Shown here one piece after another: positions 1,684 to 2,220 of a DNA stretch of 64,000 bases. Source of the stretch: Cohaesibacter haloalkalitolerans (GTDB lineage Bacteria; Pseudomonadota; Alphaproteobacteria; Rhizobiales; Cohaesibacteraceae); NCBI RefSeq assembly GCF_003574655.1, contig NZ_QNUM01000001.1, positions 124,001 through 188,000 of the forward strand, given 5' to 3'. The stretch's first letter is position 1. Each line of letters starts with the position of its first letter. The notes beneath the pieces are model-generated. The model was not told the origin of the DNA. It was given only the letters and a program-made list of their open reading frames with translations, and made no database searches. A program made the translations under genes and the position numbers.

Positions 1684-2220
<537 letters not shown>

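Follow-up and report, generated by a model that had tools for sequence, protein, structure and literature searches.

In Escherichia coli, infC, the gene for translation initiation factor IF-3 (IF3), starts with ATT and is autoregulated by IF3, and the Streptomyces gene starts with ATC, according to the excerpted text of one source (PMC5472188). The excerpts of two further reports describe an AUA start of infC in Staphylococcus aureus, located by retapamulin initiation profiling (PMC13009471), and an ATT start in Yersinia together with peptides from upstream of the annotated gene (PMC3091656). In a Caulobacter profiling paper, 0.25% of CDSs are assigned other near-cognate starts, and its text contains no match for IF3, AUA or AUU (PMC4117421). 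Among the literature matches listed, no title announced a survey of infC start codons in Alphaproteobacteria, and work on genes that prefer non-AUG starts may cover the subject; how common AUA is in the class was likewise not found among the matches listed, but annotation holds examples of it. An AUU start of infC, probably with IF3 feedback, is conserved and essentially known biology, and a mildly fresh point of the present analysis is that AUA, not AUU, was the commonest start in the class sample.

The infC locus and its predicted start codon

The window, i.e., the whole stretch of 64,000 nucleotides analyzed, belongs to a 5.0 Mb genome and carries infC on the minus strand at 2220–1684, where 178 residues are encoded from an ATT at 2220–2218 to the TAA stop codon at 1686–1684. 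The product matched the infC profile TIGR00168 along the length of the protein with 252 bits against a curated cut-off of 60 (residues 13–178, profile positions 3–168) and was the single IF3_N match genome-wide. Its best named relative among the matches listed, with 89% identity, is a protein of a Cohaesibacter MAG, which makes Cohaesibacter the probable genus of the organism. The reading frame is shut upstream by an in-frame TGA at 2256–2254 (minus strand), 12 codons before the ATT, after which the in silico translation of the upstream frame begins, and direct reading found no ATG, GTG or TTG in the frame from this TGA down to a GTG at 2145–2143 (minus strand). A Shine-Dalgarno (SD) sequence, AGGAG, is located at 2234–2230 on the same strand and is separated from the ATT by 9 nt (2229–2221). 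An AUH codon (AUU, AUC or AUA) is thereby found at SD distance, and the frame contains no NUG codon from the upstream stop as far as the conserved domain. The preliminary description, which had proposed the ATT as the start codon and had left the strand unstated, was confirmed by direct reading in the lack of an earlier canonical start, the SD distance and the protein length, and also in the 25 residues that a GTG start would cost.

The pairing energy between the SD and the anti-SD was −7.4 kcal/mol for the ATT at 2220, which ranked first, compared with +1.0 kcal/mol for an in-frame ATT at 2229 and −1.3 kcal/mol for the GTG at 2145. An SD as good as that of infC precedes 452 of 4925 AUH codons (9%) on both strands of the window, and the SD by itself is weak evidence for the ATT start; conservation raises this codon above chance. 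The block AGGAGA-N-TACGACCATTCGCCG comprises the SD and the ATT, and its pattern has a single occurrence in the genome. All 18 of the 18 genomes of the genus (one locus each) retain this block, and much of the leader farther upstream shows variation and indels among these loci. In some relatives, an in-frame stop codon lies right before the AUH codon or a few codons away from it (e.g., L059 and L174). Comparison of these sequences points with near certainty to the AUU at 2220–2218 as the start of infC.

Two other codons in the frame were considered and rejected as start sites. The GTG at 2145 is the first canonical codon in the frame, and its use would mean that the frame upstream is open by chance; this is extremely improbable, since the GTG has poor SD pairing and is shared by only 9 of the 18 loci in the genus, the others having GTT (7) or GTC (2), and conservation of the residues N-terminal to it extends far outside the genus. 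A start at this GTG also cuts into the family profile, because the resulting 153-residue form matched TIGR00168 with 234 bits over profile positions 17–168, with a loss of 14 profile positions. The use of another nearby non-canonical codon is very unlikely as well: the ATT at 2229 is in frame and upstream of the ATT at 2220, but it abuts the SD, has an unfavorable energy, and is not kept in the genus, where 10 of the 18 loci have ATT, 6 have ACT and 2 have AAT at the position.

Start codons of infC across Alphaproteobacteria

Start codons were called by ranking the in-frame AUH, NUG and CUG codons according to upstream pairing with the anti-SD tail. The order sample consisted of 56 of 59 matches, namely, the window's own genome, 17 genomes of the genus, 2 of the family and the rest of the order, after G043, G027 and a second partial match in G035 were dropped. 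The class sample consisted of 144 loci from the top-scoring matches among 276 Alphaproteobacteria genomes with a match; G218, G091, G259, G145 and G175 were left out, and G000 was counted in the order sample. A further 80 named loci, many of them from Rhizobiaceae, were the nearest by score. As a control, the same script called ATT for infC of E. coli K-12, whose RefSeq CDS begins with ATT, in agreement with the AUU start that had earlier been cited as a precedent. For rplT and rpmI together, in the loci for which these genes were available, ATG was called in 143 of 156 cases: of 83 rplT genes, 76 were called ATG, and in the other 7 the ATG tied exactly with an AUH codon immediately upstream of it, and ATG was called in 67 of 73 rpmI genes, along with CTG (3), ATC (1), GTG (1) and TTG (1).

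All 56 loci of the order sample were called with an AUH start, most commonly AUU (39), followed by AUC (10) and AUA (7), and the 80 nearest named loci were called AUU in 75, AUA in 4 and AUC in 1. An ATG at another position with loss of the ATT, which the preliminary description had named as evidence against this start, was found in neither the genus nor the order. Class-wide, A or C takes over at the third base, while a minority of loci resemble ATG or TTG starts: AUA was the commonest call (85 of 144), followed by AUC (29), AUU (12), ATG (7), TTG (7) and CTG (1), and 3 loci received no call. AUH calls thus amounted to 126 of 144, 118 of them with an SD energy of −5 or better, and the other 18 loci were called with an NUG or CTG codon (15) or remained uncalled (3). 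A simpler caller with fixed spacing gave AUH in 116 of 144 class, 53 of 56 order and 80 of 80 named loci. When in-frame codons were arranged by distance from the strongest SD, AUH codons peaked at 6–9 nt, with few NUG codons; the AUH share at 7 nt in the class sample was 41 of 48, and that at 9 nt among the named loci was 73 of 74.

Half of the AUU calls in the class sample (6 of 12; L056, L173, L234, L243, L251 and L278) had an SD energy above −5, and in L251 and L278 an ATG is equally plausible. Conversely, the top call was not AUH in L203, L244 and L272, where an ATA at the usual place was close behind. Three of the seven ATG-called loci (L041, L178, L236, L241, L227, L232 and L242) are almost without an SD. 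The exceptions look real in places, such as L041, L178 and L236, where the sequence looks like an ATG start preceded by an SD, and IF3 feedback may have been lost in the ATG-called lineages. In other classes of the phylum, 22 loci from 120 genomes searched, in which some calls are placed far upstream and less certain, gave ATC (14), ATT (5), ATA (2) and GTG (1).

The use of Ile synonyms at the start site differs from that in the gene bodies, which were counted over the available stretch of each locus. In the class sample, ATA accounts for 85 of 126 AUH starts versus 95 of the 1101 Ile codons counted in gene bodies (Fisher P 8e-49), and in the order sample, ATT accounts for 39 of 56 starts versus 121 of 542 body Ile codons (Fisher P 2e-12); both P values are indicative only and overstated, because the species are related and shared ancestry is ignored. 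The AUH codon is therefore not a plain sense codon. Among 131 family-code groups, 54 had only ATA, 27 only ATT, 25 only ATC and 7 mixed AUH codons, and the remaining groups had only ATG/TTG (7), ATA mixed with TTG/CTG (3) or no confident call (8). A rough FastTree tree of 200 loci, built from at most 72 residues, included 185 loci with a confident call (ATA 91, ATT 45, ATC 38, TTG 6, ATG 4 and CTG 1), and the 15 loci without one were not counted. On this rough tree, the start changed within the AUH set (AUA, AUC, AUU) at least 40 times and crossed between AUH and non-AUH codons at least 9 times. This pattern makes it fairly likely that the infC start across Alphaproteobacteria is held to AU followed by a base other than G, as if the third-base mismatch read by IF3, and not a given codon, were selected. 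The natural AUA, AUC and AUU starts of the class offer material for asking what IF3 recognizes.

The expectation that automatic annotation would truncate IF3 held only in part. Among 75 matching plasmid records, 4 annotated alphaproteobacterial records were compared (a fifth had no feature there); three of them start infC at ATT (a Sinorhizobium meliloti record) or ATA (Falsirhodobacter algicola, Azospirillum sp. B510), and one starts it at an internal ATG. The latter is Azospirillum ramasamyi infC (L311, 352–816), the frame of which extends upstream to an ATA at the same place as the start in Azospirillum sp. B510; the annotated A. ramasamyi gene is likely truncated. Start-codon rules can accordingly shorten IF3 in annotation, as in this one record of four.

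Probable transcription unit and leader of infC

In the window, infC, rpmI and rplT lie on one strand in the E. coli gene order. An intrinsic terminator with a 10-pair stem and a T tail was found after infC by a terminator scan at 1626–1649 (minus strand), and all 17 of the 17 loci of the genus that cover the region carry a similar hairpin and T-run behind infC, versus 4 of 170 shuffles. Upstream of infC, a sigma-70 scan found no promoter. The sequence CTTG(A/C)AAG-N16-CATATGT, at 2260–2290 (minus strand) in the window, where it ends 39 nt before the ATT, is conserved, with an unchanged spacer length, in all 18 loci of the genus, where its end is 39–44 nt away from the start; judged by this conservation, it looks like a promoter that would yield a leader of some 30–40 nt. 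With this putative promoter and the terminator, infC is probably transcribed as a single-gene mRNA, as predicted from the sequence. The region around the start codon folds no better than shuffled sequences (z 0.22 and 1.15), with no special RNA structure found, and positions 1–4000 gave no Rfam match at the gathering threshold.

The neighborhood of infC includes two further genes. Between infC and rpmI, at 1062–1520 (minus strand), is a TspO-like gene whose best NCBIfam model did not reach its cut-off, and tspO adjoins infC in 9 of 17 same-genus loci covering the region and in 0 of 80 named loci. Oriented divergently to infC, at 2540–3400 (plus strand), is focA (TIGR04060), which encodes a formate transporter, and focA is found in 13 of 17 same-genus loci covering the region and in 0 of 80 named loci. 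A sequence TTGAT-N4-GTCAT at 2434–2447, with similar sequences in several genus members with an adjoining focA, resembles an FNR/FixK-type box and may serve focA control.

Proposed IF3 feedback and comparison with known systems

By analogy with E. coli, a feedback mechanism is proposed for infC of the window. The initiator tRNA would pair with the A and U of the AUU codon and be mismatched at the third base, and the IF3-dependent destabilization of 30S complexes with such a third-base mismatch could lower infC initiation when free IF3 is high and allow it to rise when free IF3 is low. The result would be negative feedback acting on a probable single-gene mRNA with a short leader, and the first IF3 residue would be formyl-methionine. 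The same feedback is likely here, because the IF3 of the window aligns with E. coli IF3 along its length. Through its AUU start, IF3 probably limits its own production, as can soundly be inferred from E. coli. Taken jointly, the AUU start at 2220–2218 and the feedback were given a probability of roughly 0.8, a lower rating than that of the start codon by itself because the joint statement includes the feedback.

Alternatively, AUU may be the start and merely fix a low rate of infC expression, with IF3 feedback unused. This is unlikely, although a low rate would agree with S. aureus, in which three non-canonical starts gave approximately 10% of the AUG reporter output in poor medium according to the excerpted report (PMC13009471), and no demonstration of the feedback in Alphaproteobacteria was found in the literature among the matches listed. 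The good conservation between the IF3 of the window and the E. coli protein argues against it. The many third-base changes among A, U and C on the tree, compared with ATG in only 4 of the 185 confident loci, suit sensitivity to IF3 but would also suit plain low initiation. The preferred reading, an AUU start under IF3 feedback, extends a textbook loop to an alphaproteobacterium with an apparent single-gene infC mRNA, which offers a clean test case.

Of the described systems, E. coli infC shares with the window the ATT start, an SD spacing of 9 by the same scoring and a well-conserved IF3. In contrast, E. coli infC closely follows thrS and precedes rpmI-rplT, whereas infC of the window has its own candidate promoter and is followed by a conserved terminator. 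Sinorhizobium meliloti infC (CP090106.1) is also annotated with an ATT start, which is preceded by ACGACC as in the window, but in that record it is located on pSymB. S. aureus (AUA) and Streptomyces (ATC), as described in the excerpted sources, likewise possess an AUH-initiated IF3 gene; however, they belong to other phyla and use another third base, and the S. aureus start was located by profiling, whereas that of the window was assigned by comparison.
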